Shown: positions 1,551 through 27,516 of the stretch, in pieces
Numbering within the stretch: position 1 is the stretch's first letter
Layout: each line of letters opens with the position of its first letter
From: Salsipaludibacter albus
Lineage (GTDB): Bacteria > Actinomycetota > Nitriliruptoria > Nitriliruptorales > Nitriliruptoraceae
Direction of reading: 5' to 3'
DNA: 47,675 bases
NCBI RefSeq assembly: GCF_019798055.1
Contig: NZ_JAHOPH010000029.1
Coordinates: 1-47,675 of the forward strand
Program-made: the position numbers and the translations under genes
The notes under the pieces: generated by a model
The model's database searches: none
Seen by the model: only the letters and a program-made list of their open reading frames with translations
Told to the model about the DNA's origin: nothing

Positions 1551-2410
1551 GTGAGCTCGACCGCGATGTCCTGCAGCGGCGCCTCCGCGACGAGTCGCCT
1601 GCCTTCGCCCGCGCCGTGCGGACCTACGTCGCCGAGGCGGACTTCTTCCACCCGCTCGTCACGACGTCGCTGTCCGGGCGTGGACCACTGACCGTCCTGG
1701 AGGTGGGAGCGGGGGTCGGGCTGCTGGCGATGCGGCTGGCCGCAGACGGTCACCACGTCGTGGCCTTCGAGCCCCAGTCCGCCGGGTTCGACCACAACCG
1801 GGCGATCCGGGACCTCCTCCGGGCGTGCTGGGCCGGTCCCGACCCCGTCGTGGAGTGGCACGACACCGTGTTCGCCCCCGACCTGCTGGATCCCGCCCGA
1901 CCGGTCGATGTCGCCCTGTCGCTCAACGTGCTCGAGCACGTCGCGGATCCGGCCGGGCTGGTCCAGCAGGTCGTGGCGTCGCTCAGGCCCGCGGGGTCCT
2001 ACCGGGTGATCTGCCCGAACTACGCCGTCCCGTACGAGCCGCACTTCAACATCCCGACCGTCTGGTCCAAGCCGTGGACCGGGCGGCTGTTCTCCCGTCG
2101 CATCGACACCGCCGACATGCCCGATCCGCAGGGCCTGTGGGACGAGCTGTCGTGGCCCACCCAGCGTGGCCTGGCCCGGGCCCTGGCCGCGCGGGGGGTG
2201 GCGGTCACGTTCGATCGTCGGGCCACCCATGCCTACCTCGACCGCGTCCTCGGCGATCCCGCCTTCGCCGCTCGCAAGGGGCCCGTCCTGGCCGGTGTCG
2301 CCCGGCTGGTGGGCGGGTCCGCGGGCACCCTGGTGGATCACCTGCCCGTGTCGCTCCTGCCGGTCATCGACGCCACCGCGAGCGCCCGAGGTGTGCCCGC
2401 GGGAGGATGA
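1547..2410 (+). CDS. Class I SAM-dependent methyltransferase, second of pair
   Basis: A 287-residue methyltransferase with motif I VLEVGAGVGLLAMRLA, a following acidic residue in VVAFEPQ, and the LSLNVLEHVADPAGL segment typical of ubiE/bioC-like enzymes. The GTG start at 1547 overlaps the preceding stop by four bases; longer upstream starts would overlap the previous gene heavily and carry no family homology. The C-terminal third (PNYAVPYEPHFNIP, THAYLDR) is a likely substrate-binding part that I cannot place. It is an unrelated-looking partner rather than a recent duplicate of its neighbour. Confidence 0.8.
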   Translation: MSELDRDVLQRRLRDESPAFARAVRTYVAEADFFHPLVTTSLSGRGPLTVLEVGAGVGLLAMRLAADGHHVVAFEPQSAGFDHNRAIRDLLRACWAGPDPVVEWHDTVFAPDLLDPARPVDVALSLNVLEHVADPAGLVQQVVASLRPAGSYRVICPNYAVPYEPHFNIPTVWSKPWTGRLFSRRIDTADMPDPQGLWDELSWPTQRGLARALAARGVAVTFDRRATHAYLDRVLGDPAFAARKGPVLAGVARLVGGSAGTLVDHLPVSLLPVIDATASARGVPAGG

Positions 2411-2442
2411 TCGCCGCCGTCGTCGTCCTGCAGCCGATCGTT

Positions 2443-2448
2443 TACAGT
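2443..2448 (+). promoter_or_regulatory. Candidate -10 box for def
   Basis: TACAGT, preceded by a short T run, 23 bases before the def GTG. A GGAAGGA ribosome-binding site follows at 2459-2465. Confidence 0.35.
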
Positions 2449-2471
2449 GGGCGGCCACGGAAGGACTGCTG

Positions 2472-3035
2472 GTGAGCACGCTCGAGATCCGCCTGTTCGG
2501 GGACCCCGTCCTGCGCCAGGAGGCGCGCGAGGTCACCGACTTCGACGACCGCCTGGCACGGCTGGCCCGCGACATGCACGAGACGATGGCCGCCGCCGAG
2601 GGCGTGGGCCTGGCCGCCAACCAGGTGGGCATCCTCAAGCGCCTGTTCACCTGGGGCGTGGGCGACGAGGACGACGAGCGCGGCAGCGTGGTCAACCCGG
2701 TCCTGCGCGACGCCTCGGAGGAGCTCCAGGAGGGGGACGAGGGCTGCCTGTCCTTCCCGGGGTTGTACTACCCGCTGGACCGGCCGTTGCGGGTCGAGGT
2801 CGGCCATCGCGACCTGCACGGCGAGGAGCACGTCGTCCAGCTCGAGGGGCTGCTGGCCCGCATCTGGCTCCACGAGATGGACCACCTCAACGGGATCCTG
2901 TTCATCGACCACCTGGCCCGCCACGATCGTCGGGCGGCCATGAAGGAGATGCGCCGGATCCGCACGGAGCGTGGCATCGAGGAGCCCGACCCGACCCGGC
3001 CCGGTGGCCTCCTGCTCGGCGGCGGTGGCTCGTGA
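2472..3035 (+). CDS. def: Peptide deformylase
   Basis: Removes the N-formyl group from nascent proteins. All three family motifs are present: GVGLAANQVG (about residues 44-53), EGCLS with the metal ligand Cys92, and HEMDH with His134, Glu135 and His138. At 187 residues it is within the normal range, with a short extra C-terminal tail rich in Gly and Pro. The GTG at 2472 is chosen because GGAAGGA lies 7 bases upstream and the protein then begins at the standard family start. It is followed after 16 bases by fmt, the gene that adds the formyl group Def removes. Confidence 0.97.
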   Translation: MSTLEIRLFGDPVLRQEAREVTDFDDRLARLARDMHETMAAAEGVGLAANQVGILKRLFTWGVGDEDDERGSVVNPVLRDASEELQEGDEGCLSFPGLYYPLDRPLRVEVGHRDLHGEEHVVQLEGLLARIWLHEMDHLNGILFIDHLARHDRRAAMKEMRRIRTERGIEEPDPTRPGGLLLGGGGS

Positions 3036-3051
3036 CGGGCGGCGTGTCCTG

Positions 3052-4020
3052 ATGCGACTGGTCTTCTTCGGCACCCCTGACGTGGCGGTGCCCTCCCTGG
3101 AGGCGCTCCTCGACGCCGACGACGTCGAGGTGGTCGCCGTGGTGACCAACCCCGACCGACCCCGGGGACGGTCCGCGACCCCCCGGCCGTCGGCCGTCAA
3201 GCAGGCCGCGCTGGCTGCCGACGTCCCAGTGTGGCAGCCAGAACGCGGTCGTGACGTGCGGGACGACCTGGCCGCGGCCGAACCGGACGTGTGCGCGGTC
3301 GTCGCCTACGGCTCCATCCTGCCTGCCGACGTCCTGGCCGTGCCGACCCACGGGTTCGTGAACCTGCACTTCTCCCGTCTTCCCCGGTGGCGTGGCGCCG
3401 CGCCGGTCCAGTGGGCCATCCGCGCGGGCGACTCGACCACCGGGATCTCGACCTTCGTCCTGGACGAGGGGATGGACACCGGCCCGTTGCTCGACGTCGT
3501 CGAGACCGGGATCGGCGCCGACGAGACGGCCGGCGAGCTGCTGGACCGGCTCGCGGTGACCGGCGCACCGGTCCTCCTGCAGTCCCTGCGCGACCTCGTC
3601 GACGGGGCCGTCCCGCAACCCCAGCCCGACGAGCTGGCCACCTACGCACATCGGATCGGTCCCGACGACGTCCGGATCGACTTCACCGACATCGCCACGG
3701 CCGTGGCGGCACTGGTCCGGTCCGCGGCCCCCCGTCCGGGGGCACACACGACGTGGCAGGGCGAACGGTTCAAGCTGCTCGGTGCCGTGGTGGCCGACAC
3801 CGATCCCGGCGAGGCACTGCCGGGGGAGCTGGTCGACGCGGGACCCGACGGGCTGGTCATCGCGTGTGGACTGGGCGCGATCCGGGCCACGCTCGTCCAG
3901 CCGGCCGGCAAGGCCGCGATGACGGCCGGGGACTTCGCCAACGGCTACCAGCCGGAGCCGGGCACCCGCTTCGGGTCGCCGGGCCCAGGCGCTGGCGCCG
4001 ACGACGGGGACCCGTCGTGA
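3052..4020 (+). CDS. fmt: Methionyl-tRNA formyltransferase
   Basis: Formylates initiator Met-tRNA from 10-formyl-tetrahydrofolate. The 322-residue protein starts MRLVFFGTPDVAVPSLEAL, the standard N terminus, and carries the active-site region NLHFSRLPRWRGAAP with Asn104 and catalytic His106, then GISTFVLDEGMDTGP. The C-terminal OB-like tRNA-binding domain is complete (RFKLLGAV onwards), with a short disordered tail. The stop overlaps the GTG of rsmB (GTGA), so fmt and rsmB are coupled. The order def-fmt-rsmB is widely conserved. Confidence 0.97.
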   Translation: MRLVFFGTPDVAVPSLEALLDADDVEVVAVVTNPDRPRGRSATPRPSAVKQAALAADVPVWQPERGRDVRDDLAAAEPDVCAVVAYGSILPADVLAVPTHGFVNLHFSRLPRWRGAAPVQWAIRAGDSTTGISTFVLDEGMDTGPLLDVVETGIGADETAGELLDRLAVTGAPVLLQSLRDLVDGAVPQPQPDELATYAHRIGPDDVRIDFTDIATAVAALVRSAAPRPGAHTTWQGERFKLLGAVVADTDPGEALPGELVDAGPDGLVIACGLGAIRATLVQPAGKAAMTAGDFANGYQPEPGTRFGSPGPGAGADDGDPS

Positions 4021-5312
4021 CGGTCGGCGTGGAACCGCGGGCAGCCGCGCTCGAGGCCGTCGCGGCCGTCGACGGCGGCGCCTGGTCGACGGTGGCCGTC
4101 CCCGACGCCATCGCGGACCTGCCCGACGAGCGTGACCGGTCCCTGGCGGCCCACCTCGCGCACGGCACGATCCGTTGGCGCGGGACGCTGGACTGGACCC
4201 TCGAACAGGTTCTCAGCCGGCCACTGGCCGACGTCGAGGAACCGCTGGCCCGGATCCTCCGCCTCGGGGCGTTCCAGCTGCGCCATTCCCGCGTGCCGGC
4301 CCGCGCCGCCGTCGACACGTCGGTCGCGCTGGCCCGCCGGGCCGTGCCCGCGTCGCGGGCGAAGGGTGCGGGCGGCTTCGTGAACGGGGTCCTGCGTGGC
4401 CTGTCGCGACGCGAGGTCGAGATCGACACGCGGATGGCCGAGCTCGACGACGTCGACCGGGTCGCGCTCCAGACCGGCCATCCCCCGTGGATGGTGCACG
4501 AACGGCTCGACGCCGGACGCGACCTCGCCGACGTGACCAGCCTGCTCGCCGCCGACGACGAACCCCCGGGCCTGACCCTGCGGGCCGTGGGCGACCGCGA
4601 CGAGCTGGTCGACGAGCTGGCCGCGGCCGGCGTCGACGCGACGCCGACGGCCCTGGCGGCCCTGGGCGTGCGGGCACCGGGGACGGACCCGCGCCGGCTG
4701 GACGCGGTGGCTGCGGGGCGGGCGGTGCCCCAGGACGAGGCGTCCATGCTGGTGGTCGAGGCCACCCGGGTGAGGGTGGGCGACCGGGTCGTGGACCTGT
4801 GTGCCGCGCCCGGGGGCAAGGCGACCGACCTCGCCCACCGGGTCGGACCCGATGGCCGGGTCACCGCGGTCGAGCTGTACGACCACCGCGCCGACCTCGT
4901 CCGCGAGGCTGCCGCCCGGGTCGACGTGGACCTCGACGTCGTGGTCGGGGACGCCCGCACCGCCGACCTCCCGACCGATGTCGACGTCGTGCTGGTGGAC
5001 GCCCCGTGCACCGGGCTGGGGGTTGGTCGACGTCGACCCGAGGTCCGCTGGCGACGCACACCGGCCGACGCCGACGAGCTCGCCACCCTCCAGCAGGAGT
5101 TGGTCCTGCGTGGCCTCGAGTTGGTCCGCGACGGCGGCCACCTGACCTACGCCGCGTGCACCTGGACGATGGCGGAGACGACCGCGGTCGCCGATGCCGT
5201 CGAGGCGGCGTCGCCCCGGCCACTGCACCGCCTCGAGACCCGCCAGCTCCGCCCGGACCTCCACGACACCGACGGCATGTTCCACGTCACCTGGCAGGTG
5301 CGCCCGTCGTGA
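4017..5312 (+). CDS. rsmB: 16S rRNA (cytosine-967-C5)-methyltransferase
   Basis: A 431-residue protein with an N-terminal NusB-like RNA-binding domain (about residues 1-140) and a C-terminal SAM domain. Motif I is VVDLCAAPGGKATDLA from residue 259. Both RNA m5C cysteines are visible: the catalytic-region PC in DAPCTGLG (Cys331) and the second Cys in AACTW (Cys381), where many homologues have STC. The GTG start overlaps the fmt stop; no other start gives the NusB domain intact. It methylates C967 in helix 31 of 16S rRNA. The spacer after it carries twin repeats. Confidence 0.95.
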   Translation: MTVGVEPRAAALEAVAAVDGGAWSTVAVPDAIADLPDERDRSLAAHLAHGTIRWRGTLDWTLEQVLSRPLADVEEPLARILRLGAFQLRHSRVPARAAVDTSVALARRAVPASRAKGAGGFVNGVLRGLSRREVEIDTRMAELDDVDRVALQTGHPPWMVHERLDAGRDLADVTSLLAADDEPPGLTLRAVGDRDELVDELAAAGVDATPTALAALGVRAPGTDPRRLDAVAAGRAVPQDEASMLVVEATRVRVGDRVVDLCAAPGGKATDLAHRVGPDGRVTAVELYDHRADLVREAAARVDVDLDVVVGDARTADLPTDVDVVLVDAPCTGLGVGRRRPEVRWRRTPADADELATLQQELVLRGLELVRDGGHLTYAACTWTMAETTAVADAVEAASPRPLHRLETRQLRPDLHDTDGMFHVTWQVRPS

Positions 5313-5321
5313 TCCTGCGGT

Positions 5322-5359
5322 GTGATGCCTGGTCCCGGTGACCCGGAGTGAGCCATCAC
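5322..5359 (+). repeat. Structured 38-bp repeat, copy 1
   Basis: Begins GTGATG and ends CATCAC, a 6-bp terminal inverted repeat extended to 7 bp by an outer T-A pair. Inside, GGTC (5331-5334) can pair with GACC (5340-5343). About 82% identical to copy 2 at 5394-5431. Confidence 0.75.
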
Positions 5360-5393
5360 AGCCGGTGGATCGGGGGTGGCGAGGGCTCGCGGC

Positions 5394-5431
5394 GTGATGC
5401 CTGGTTCCGGTGACCCGGAAGGGTCCATCAC
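5394..5431 (+). repeat. Structured 38-bp repeat, copy 2
   Basis: Same 38-bp layout as copy 1, offset by 72 bp. The outer base pair is C-G instead of T-A, and the inner hairpin has a T-G wobble where copy 1 has C-G, so differences preserve pairing. Lies in the spacer between rsmB and rpe. Confidence 0.75.
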
Positions 5432-5486
5432 GCCTGGGGGAGAGGGGAGGTCGGGGAGGGGCGGCAGGTGGCAACGGCGGGGGGAG

Positions 5487-5492
5487 TAGCCT
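5487..5492 (+). promoter_or_regulatory. Candidate -10 box for rpe
   Basis: TAGCCT, 37 bases before the rpe GTG and just after the twin repeats. No clear -35. Confidence 0.3.
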
Positions 5493-5529
5493 GCACGAGC
5501 CAACCCTCGTCGCGTCCCGGGAGTCCGAC

Positions 5530-6222
5530 GTGTCCGTGCTGCACGACATCGTGATCTCGCCGTCGATCCTCGCGGCGGACTTCGCGCGCCTCGGGGCCGA
5601 GGTCGCCGACGTCGCGCCCGCGGTCGAGTGGGTGCACGTCGACGTGATGGACGGCCACTACGTGCCCAACATCACCCTGGGCAACCCCGTGGTGGCGAGC
5701 CTGCGCGCCGCCACCGACCTGGTGCTGGACCTGCACCTGATGATCACCGACCCGGCGACCTACGCACCGCAGCTGGTCGAGCGTGGTGCCGACTCGATCA
5801 CGTTCCATCCCGAGGTCACCGACGACCCGCGGGCCCTGGTCGACCGCCTGCACGAGATGGGTGCGCGGGTCGGCGTGGCGATCAAGCCCGACCACCCGTT
5901 GTCGTCCGTCGTCGAGCTGGTGCCCCACGTCGACCTCGTGCTGGTCATGACGGTCGAACCCGGCTTCGGCGGGCAGTCCTTCCGGGCCGACGTGCTGCCC
6001 AAGCTGGTCGAGGCCGCGGAGTTCCGCGACGAGCACGACCTGTCGTTCCGGCTGGAGGTCGACGGTGGCATCGACCCGGAGACGGCCGTCGCGGTCGCCC
6101 GGGCCGGGGCCGACACGCTCGTCGCCGGCTCCGCGGTGTTCGGCCACGACGACCGGACGGCCGCCGTGGGGGCGATCCGTGCCGCGGCCCAGCGTGGCCG
6201 AGGTGTCGAGGGCGGGGGATGA
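5530..6222 (+). CDS. rpe: Ribulose-phosphate 3-epimerase
   Basis: Interconverts ribulose 5-phosphate and xylulose 5-phosphate in the pentose-phosphate pathway. The 230-residue TIM barrel shows the N-terminal ISPSILAADFARL, the metal/catalytic segment HVDVMDGHYVPN, MTVEPGFGGQSF and the phosphate-binding VDGGI and VAGSAVFG elements. GTG at 5530 (or GTG at 5536) gives the standard length and has a GGGAG sequence upstream; a start at 5410 would lie in the repeats. The stop overlaps the ATG of the first ABC transporter gene. In actinobacteria rpe commonly lies next to the riboflavin genes, which use ribulose 5-phosphate. Confidence 0.96.
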   Translation: MSVLHDIVISPSILAADFARLGAEVADVAPAVEWVHVDVMDGHYVPNITLGNPVVASLRAATDLVLDLHLMITDPATYAPQLVERGADSITFHPEVTDDPRALVDRLHEMGARVGVAIKPDHPLSSVVELVPHVDLVLVMTVEPGFGGQSFRADVLPKLVEAAEFRDEHDLSFRLEVDGGIDPETAVAVARAGADTLVAGSAVFGHDDRTAAVGAIRAAAQRGRGVEGGG

Positions 6223-10062: not shown

Positions 10063-10069
10063 CCGTGGT

Positions 10070-10219
10070 GACGTCTTCGGGGCAGGTGGAAGTCCTGGCC
10101 GGCGGTGAGAGCCCGCGAGCCGTGGTCGTCGAGGTGGCGTCGAACGCACCGCGACGGTCCGTGGCAGACCCGGTGGAATCCCGGGGCCGACGGTGAGAGT
10201 CCGGATGGGAGGAGACGTC
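10070..10219 (+). ncRNA. FMN riboswitch (RFN element)
   Basis: Matches the conserved FMN aptamer core: GGGGCAGGTGGAAGTCC, GGCGGTGAGAGCCCGCGAGC, then GACCCGGTGGAATCCCGG, GGCCGACGGTGAGAGTCC and GGATGGGAGGAGA. A closing P1 helix pairs 10070-10078 with 10211-10219 (GACGTCTTC with GGAGGAGACGTC, one wobble). The variable arm (about 10122-10162) is longer than the minimum. It lies upstream of ribD and should repress the operon when FMN is bound. The mode is not obvious; no U-tract terminator is seen downstream. Confidence 0.95.
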
Positions 10220-10247
10220 GCGGTGCGGCCTGTCCGGATCCGGGTGG

Positions 10248-27418: not shown

Positions 27419-27457
27419 CGCCCGCCCGCCGACCCCCCGCCGAGCGTGATGGAACAC

Positions 27458-27471
27458 TGCACACTGTTGCA
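27458..27471 (+). promoter_or_regulatory. Possible weak ArgR-like box near arfB
   Basis: TGCA-CACTGT-TGCA shares the TGCA-N6-TGCA frame of the argC and argG boxes, but without their CGCATAG extension and not at a promoter -35. May be chance. Confidence 0.2.
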
Positions 27472-27516
27472 CGATCCGGTCACGCCCGGCTGACCCAGGC
27501 GTCGGCGACCGGGGCA

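Follow-up and report, generated by a model that had tools for sequence, protein, structure and literature searches.

A pair of 38-bp structured repeats in the genome of Salsipaludibacter albus is probably one locus of a dispersed REP-type family of palindromes, whose unit, a 44-bp hairpin, is often doubled and would be spread by a factor other than a Y1 transposase. REPs count among the most common repeats of bacteria, and RAYTs that act on hairpins with a GTAG tag are usually held responsible for spreading them. The pair lies in contig NZ_JAHOPH010000029.1 (assembly GCF_019798055.1), of which the whole stretch analysed, 47,675 nucleotides, is termed the window. An earlier note, made from the letters of the window, had offered a REP-like reading; this is the best reading of the repeats, supported by 29 places in the S. 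albus genome and by families of matching layout in other genomes of the class (referred to here by G numbers).

The twin copies stand at 5322-5359 and 5394-5431, 72 bp start to start, and both show the GTGATG/CATCAC ends and inner CCGGTGACCCGG hairpin ascribed to them in the earlier note. Each belongs to a 44-bp palindrome on the forward strand: element 1 (5319..5362; covariance model score 46.9 bits, E 8.5e-9) and element 2 (5391..5434; 51.2 bits, E 5.7e-10), both of the type termed class A below, and both training sequences of the models R1, R2 and R3. They are identical at 36 of 44 positions and are separated by a 28-nt spacer (5363..5390). Their inner hairpin cores, also on the forward strand, lie at 5334..5347 (CCCGG-TGAC-CCGGA) and 5406..5419 (TCCGG-TGAC-CCGGA). 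As had been claimed, copy 1 has T-A as its flanking pair where copy 2 has C-G. The further claim that an inner C-G pair becomes a T-G wobble fails, since in the layout backed by the whole family that position pairs with A, giving a C/A mismatch in copy 1 and a T-A pair in copy 2. The pattern GTGATG-N20..32-CATCAC has three matches in the window against 0.03 expected, and none of 100 shuffles reaches three; the third match (5644-5675), with 20 bases between its ends, is inside rpe. Folded singly as RNA, the copies are only moderately more stable than shuffles (z -2.5 and -2.3), and folded together as DNA they give z -2.7. The family of 29 genomic places is stronger evidence than this folding of single copies.

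These places were found with R2, a covariance model built from 24 copies (its predecessor R1 was built from nine), at E <= 0.01. They comprise the reported pair, a third window member at 27443..27486 (forward strand; 31.1 bits, E 1.9e-4) and 26 places elsewhere; 24 are training sequences and five are new, including 27443-27486, which is flanked by pheT-like and RF-1-domain genes. The genome-wide pattern and covariance searches proposed in the earlier note thus dispose of the objection that the genome might hold no further copies. Exact GTGATG/CATCAC ends with 24-28 bases between them occur at five places, on both strands each, and a reversed control pattern at none. With two mismatches allowed the pattern had 440 matches against 53 for the reversed control, most of them chance by eye, and only the rows with a recognisable core (C19:45346, C34:107712) were kept; the R1 match C39:23910 was dropped as apparent coding sequence, likewise by eye.

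In this genome the unit, GTGA-N30-TCAC, is an imperfect palindrome of 38 bp, or of 44 bp if its flanks are included, and bears one of two cores. Class A (12 copies) has the core TCCGG-TGRC-CCGGA or close variants and class B (17 copies) GCSRACTGTYGC or close variants, the third window member carrying the class B core TGCACACTGTTGCA. The GTGA/TCAC ends are common to both classes and invariant in the 24-sequence alignment. Column pair 17-28 of the inner stem is C-G in 12 rows and G-C in 12, a compensatory difference that separates the classes. Pairing is poor in the region that joins the outer stem to the inner one (column pairs 9, 11, 12 and 13 each pair in fewer than half of the rows), making the element an imperfect palindrome in its own genome. 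All but two of the 29 places lie wholly outside called genes; the two overlap a called gene end, one a stop and one a doubtful start. At 38-44 bp and 29 places the family is a REP in the general sense of a 20-50 bp palindrome with many extragenic copies; against the REP-type reading, 29 is a low copy number for REPs. The family does not look like a CRISPR array, with one to three units per locus and pair identities of 32-43/44 in this genome. Positions 5250-5500 match no Rfam family at E <= 5, and eight loci searched match none at the gathering threshold; the sole Rfam match in the window is an FMN riboswitch (RF00050, 87.2 bits) at 10069-10220 on the forward strand. At one class B locus (L047, contig C19, 2739 to 2847) the 70-nt gap separating two copies holds a direct repeat of 36-bp period.

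Palindromy is kept by compensatory change of the arms. An alignment across families (A4) has 40 cells changed on both sides against 17.2 +/- 3.1 in shuffles, none of 500 reaching that number, a count that leans towards structure because its rows were picked with structure-aware models. In an alignment of copies from the congeners G039 and G041 (A5), 96% of cells are paired and 12 are changed on both sides, against 4.1 +/- 1.5 in shuffles (0/500). The signal within the S. albus genome is weaker: 42 both-side cells against 30.2 shuffled (1/500), with two of five measures not above the shuffles.

Copies often come in pairs at preferred distances. Same-strand class A pairs in the S. albus genome are spaced by 72, 71, 69, 71, 71 and 71 bp, and class B pairs by 108, 61 and 61 bp. 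These nine neighbour pairs within 110 bp compare with a null mean of 0.31 and a maximum of three in 2000 simulations, and by core orientation the members of all nine lie on a single strand, a distinction that near-palindromy blurs. In G039 and G041 a distance of exactly 71 bp separates all ten pairs of neighbours lying within 200 bp of each other; these ten, like four of the six class A pairs, have a 27-nt spacer. Genome G030 has pairs at 72 and 48 bp and G053 one pair at 50 bp, and none of the 19 G045 copies scanned by eye has a second copy within 130 bp. Part of the pairing may reflect local duplication, because in the S. albus genome members of the same locus are more alike (86%) than members of different loci (77%). 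That the twin is a mere tandem duplication of a 72-bp stretch, its second copy drifting, would suit this difference, the 72-bp period that Tandem Repeats Finder reports at the twin (2.1 copies, 77% match) and the weak resemblance between the spacer and the sequence following copy 2 (a fraction of 0.03 of shuffles score as high). This explanation is nonetheless highly improbable: it leaves unexplained the other loci and the 71-bp period in G039 and G041 despite unrelated arms, and at C34a, C25 and most G039 pairs no further copy of the spacer adjoins the pair.

The dispersed family occupies 20 loci in the S. albus genome, as judged from gene calls by our own codon-score script: eight convergent, nine unidirectional (in one case the next called gene is 908 bp off), two divergent and one near a contig end. 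Convergent gaps hold eight of the 18 loci counted (L046 and L112, one of them near a contig end, being left out), against two of 44 gene gaps in the window, a small background sample (Fisher p 4e-4). Many copies moreover lie 8-60 bp downstream of a stop and form stable hairpins, most of all in G039 (z -12). The copies could therefore have been retained at 3' ends as transcription terminators or as hairpins of mRNA 3' ends, alike through shared use and not through mobility. We consider this unlikely. A T-tract is found on either side of none of the copies (0/29, 0/26 and 0/19, thus 0/74), which makes a terminator role unlikely, and no terminator-like site was found in 5200-5600. Divergent gaps are also occupied, at two loci here and at three of 14 resolved in G039; locus L109 has a separate strong hairpin between stop and element; and terminators require neither the fixed 44-bp length nor the core letters nor the 71-bp pairing.

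Alternatively, the copies could be operator sites, palindromic in duplex DNA, for a DNA-binding regulator or nucleoid protein. The invariant GTGA/TCAC ends of the 24 aligned copies speak for this, and a constant length and constant spacing of pairs would agree with a protein assembly. Such a role is very unlikely, however, as most sites lie behind genes and not at promoters, the arm letters vary in compensation instead of being conserved, and in G039 many copies from dissimilar loci agree at all 44 positions. This last identity suggests recent copying.

The second objection foreseen in the earlier note, that relatives might hold no copy, is removed by families of matching layout that several genomes of the class contain. 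Searched against 150 genomes, R2 found any match in five (S. albus included) and many matches in S. albus only. A laxer R2 search of 36 relatives found the same geometry with other arms in G030 (GTGTCGG...CCGACAC), G045 (CGTTGAACG...CGTTCAACG) and G025; weak R2 matches in relatives (E up to 3) were mostly read as chance, and these were kept because the exact layout is present. A generic model, R3, was then built from 15 sequences and matches 13 of 66 genomes of the class at E <= 0.01, among which the training genomes (S. albus, G025, G030 and G045) match by construction. Outside the training set it finds families in G039 (17 places), G041 (3), G061 (1), G053, G051 and G047; its weak matches in G005, G024 and G031 are not counted as families. 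These independent families have their own arms each, except that G039 and G041 have arms in common. What the families share is the 44-bp layout and a CCGG-N4-CCGG centre, the arms being unrelated. The layout is not universal, as R3 finds nothing at E <= 0.01 in the other 53 genomes, which include the sole congener of S. albus (G001).

Simpler patterns were less specific. Exact GTGATG-N24..28-CATCAC matches 38 of 61 genomes (S. albus included), and the listed matches outside S. albus lack a shared core and were judged chance by eye. A genome contig collection had no match to the class A pattern and two to the class B pattern, apparently one conserved Rhodocyclaceae coding sequence and thus chance. 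Four pattern searches of viral contigs gave 0, 2, 0 and 0 matches, the two being rejected as lacking the closing TCAC, and plasmid and phage searches gave none. Other hairpins were seen along the way. Locus L071 of G025 has GTGTGA...TCACAC hairpin repeats in tandem (1370-1470) before the element, between genes that by eye look like nusB and pyrR, and in the congener G001 a stop codon is followed by a perfect hairpin of another kind, GTGTGCGGATCAGCCCG...CGGGCTGATCCGCACAC (L073, 1501-1542). At G045 loci L205, L206, L207, L209, L218, L143 and L145 several genes are called as ending within the palindrome; the G045 arms carry TGA on both strands.

The twin itself lies between an rsmB-like gene (16S rRNA methyltransferase RsmB/F; 4017..5312, forward strand) and an rpe-like gene (ribulose-phosphate 3-epimerase; 5530..6222, forward strand). 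Six bp separate the rsmB-like stop codon from the first 44-mer, and the 38-bp copies start 9 and 81 bp downstream of that stop. The two genes are side by side in seven relatives among 12 genomes searched. Between aligned ends the intervening stretch is 220 nt in the window and 61 (G007), 85 (G019), 75 (G016), 103 (G015) and 74 nt (G002) in five of them; it is longer in G008 (317 nt) and G003 (292 nt). R3 has no match in these two long gaps, which speaks against the REP-type reading; a quick hairpin finder reports nothing in them, but it misses the imperfect hairpins of the window as well, so that its silence carries no weight. The short gaps in five of seven relatives fit an insertion of the 116-bp doublet. 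The relatives, being too diverged, offer no clean pair of empty and filled sites, and rsmB was not found beside rpe in the congener G001. A second sign of movement comes from G041, where the doublet L199 precedes the same gene as the G039 doublet L191 and has a spacer nearly identical to that of another G039 doublet, L192, whose neighbour genes differ. The shared spacer suggests copying or gene conversion of a whole doublet. Gene order at L191 and L199 is common to one side of the doublet only, which places the doublet at a rearrangement breakpoint.

The REP-associated (Y1) transposase proposed in the earlier note did not turn up. PF01797 (Y1_Tnp) has no match in the S. albus genome, which is 97.3% complete, and none in 27 of the 28 genomes checked; the sole match, part-length, is in G041, so that 26 of the 27 other genomes lack one. 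The same model matches five of 14 control genomes, E. coli included. At 97.3% completeness a missed Y1 gene is possible, but such a miss is unlikely to recur in G039 (95%) and G045 (93%); G030 is only 53% complete. No other candidate enzyme was found. At locus L048 (contig C34) copies stand on one side (2102, 2173) and the other (3213, 3282, 3353) of an AbiEi-like gene (2297-3223) whose C-terminal part is nuclease-like and whose called stop codon falls within the first downstream copy. PADLOC assigns this gene to AbiEi; PF04480 (DUF559) has no match there, and Pfam offers only a sub-threshold REase_MTES_1575. Its candidacy as mobiliser is not supported, the genes examined beside copies in G039, G041, G045, G030 and G025 being of unrelated kinds.

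Compared with known systems, we file the family as untagged, RAYT-less and REP-like, with REPIN-like doublets. REPINs are REP doublets and mostly inverted, as are 93% of 430 in Pseudomonas fluorescens SBW25 (PMC3116915). Like REPINs as described there, the present repeats are short extragenic palindromes in genome-specific families with an excess of doublets at a preferred distance. The GI doublet of SBW25 also has 71 bp between first residues, probably by coincidence (PMC3116915). The doublets thus have the preferred spacing of REPINs but not their inverted members, since by core asymmetry the members here are on the same strand. The repeated unit is the whole 44-bp palindrome, and no RAYT was found. 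The families also resemble GTAG- and CGTC-tagged REPs (PMC3733652) in being palindromes of 20-40 bp placed behind genes, mostly in gaps between convergent or unidirectional ORFs. GTAG lies within 6 nt of an end in 0/29, 0/26 and 0/19 copies, unlike GTAG-REPs, and CGTC at one end in 3/29, 1/26 and 4/19, so it is not the constant tag of a CGTC-REP. CGTC REPs are said to be without a dedicated transposase (PMC3733652), and none was found here either. The word Actinobacteria is absent from the same paper; it does list untagged REP-like families in M. tuberculosis, D. radiodurans, Bordetella, Brucella and cyanobacteria. With E. coli REP/BIME elements (PMC8266576) our family shares imperfect palindromy, a conserved zone of mismatches inside the palindrome, a place between genes and composite arrays. 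In E. coli the REPs bear GTAG, and the Y1 transposase TnpA_REP cleaves them (PMC8266576); here neither GTAG nor a Y1 transposase was found. Our literature searches found no description of these families.

A mechanism for such a dispersed family can be outlined. Its unit is the 44-bp palindrome, able to form a hairpin and often present twice at a period near 71 bp (the palindrome plus a 27-nt spacer). Copies would spread as DNA within a genome into intergenic space, mostly behind stop codons. A trans-acting protein, neither Y1 nor RAYT, may recognise the folded layout of arms and core on single-stranded DNA and copy singlets or doublets, and in each lineage the arm letters may have drifted jointly with that protein. 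Transcribed copies would form 3' hairpins, so any influence on the 3' ends of mRNAs is probably incidental. A bolder version, which we hold only tentatively and think rather less likely to be right than wrong, is a previously undescribed REP system in which one such protein family copies doublets of hairpins through genomes of the whole class, the layout staying fixed (44-bp palindrome, 27-nt spacer, 71-bp period, CCGG-N4-CCGG centre) while the arms diverge per lineage. Families that span the class with a shared layout and fixed-period doublets, with no tag and no Y1 enzyme, would separate layout from enzyme. They would also allow a second mobiliser to be sought in concrete terms, and G039, with its near-identical copies, would be the place to look.
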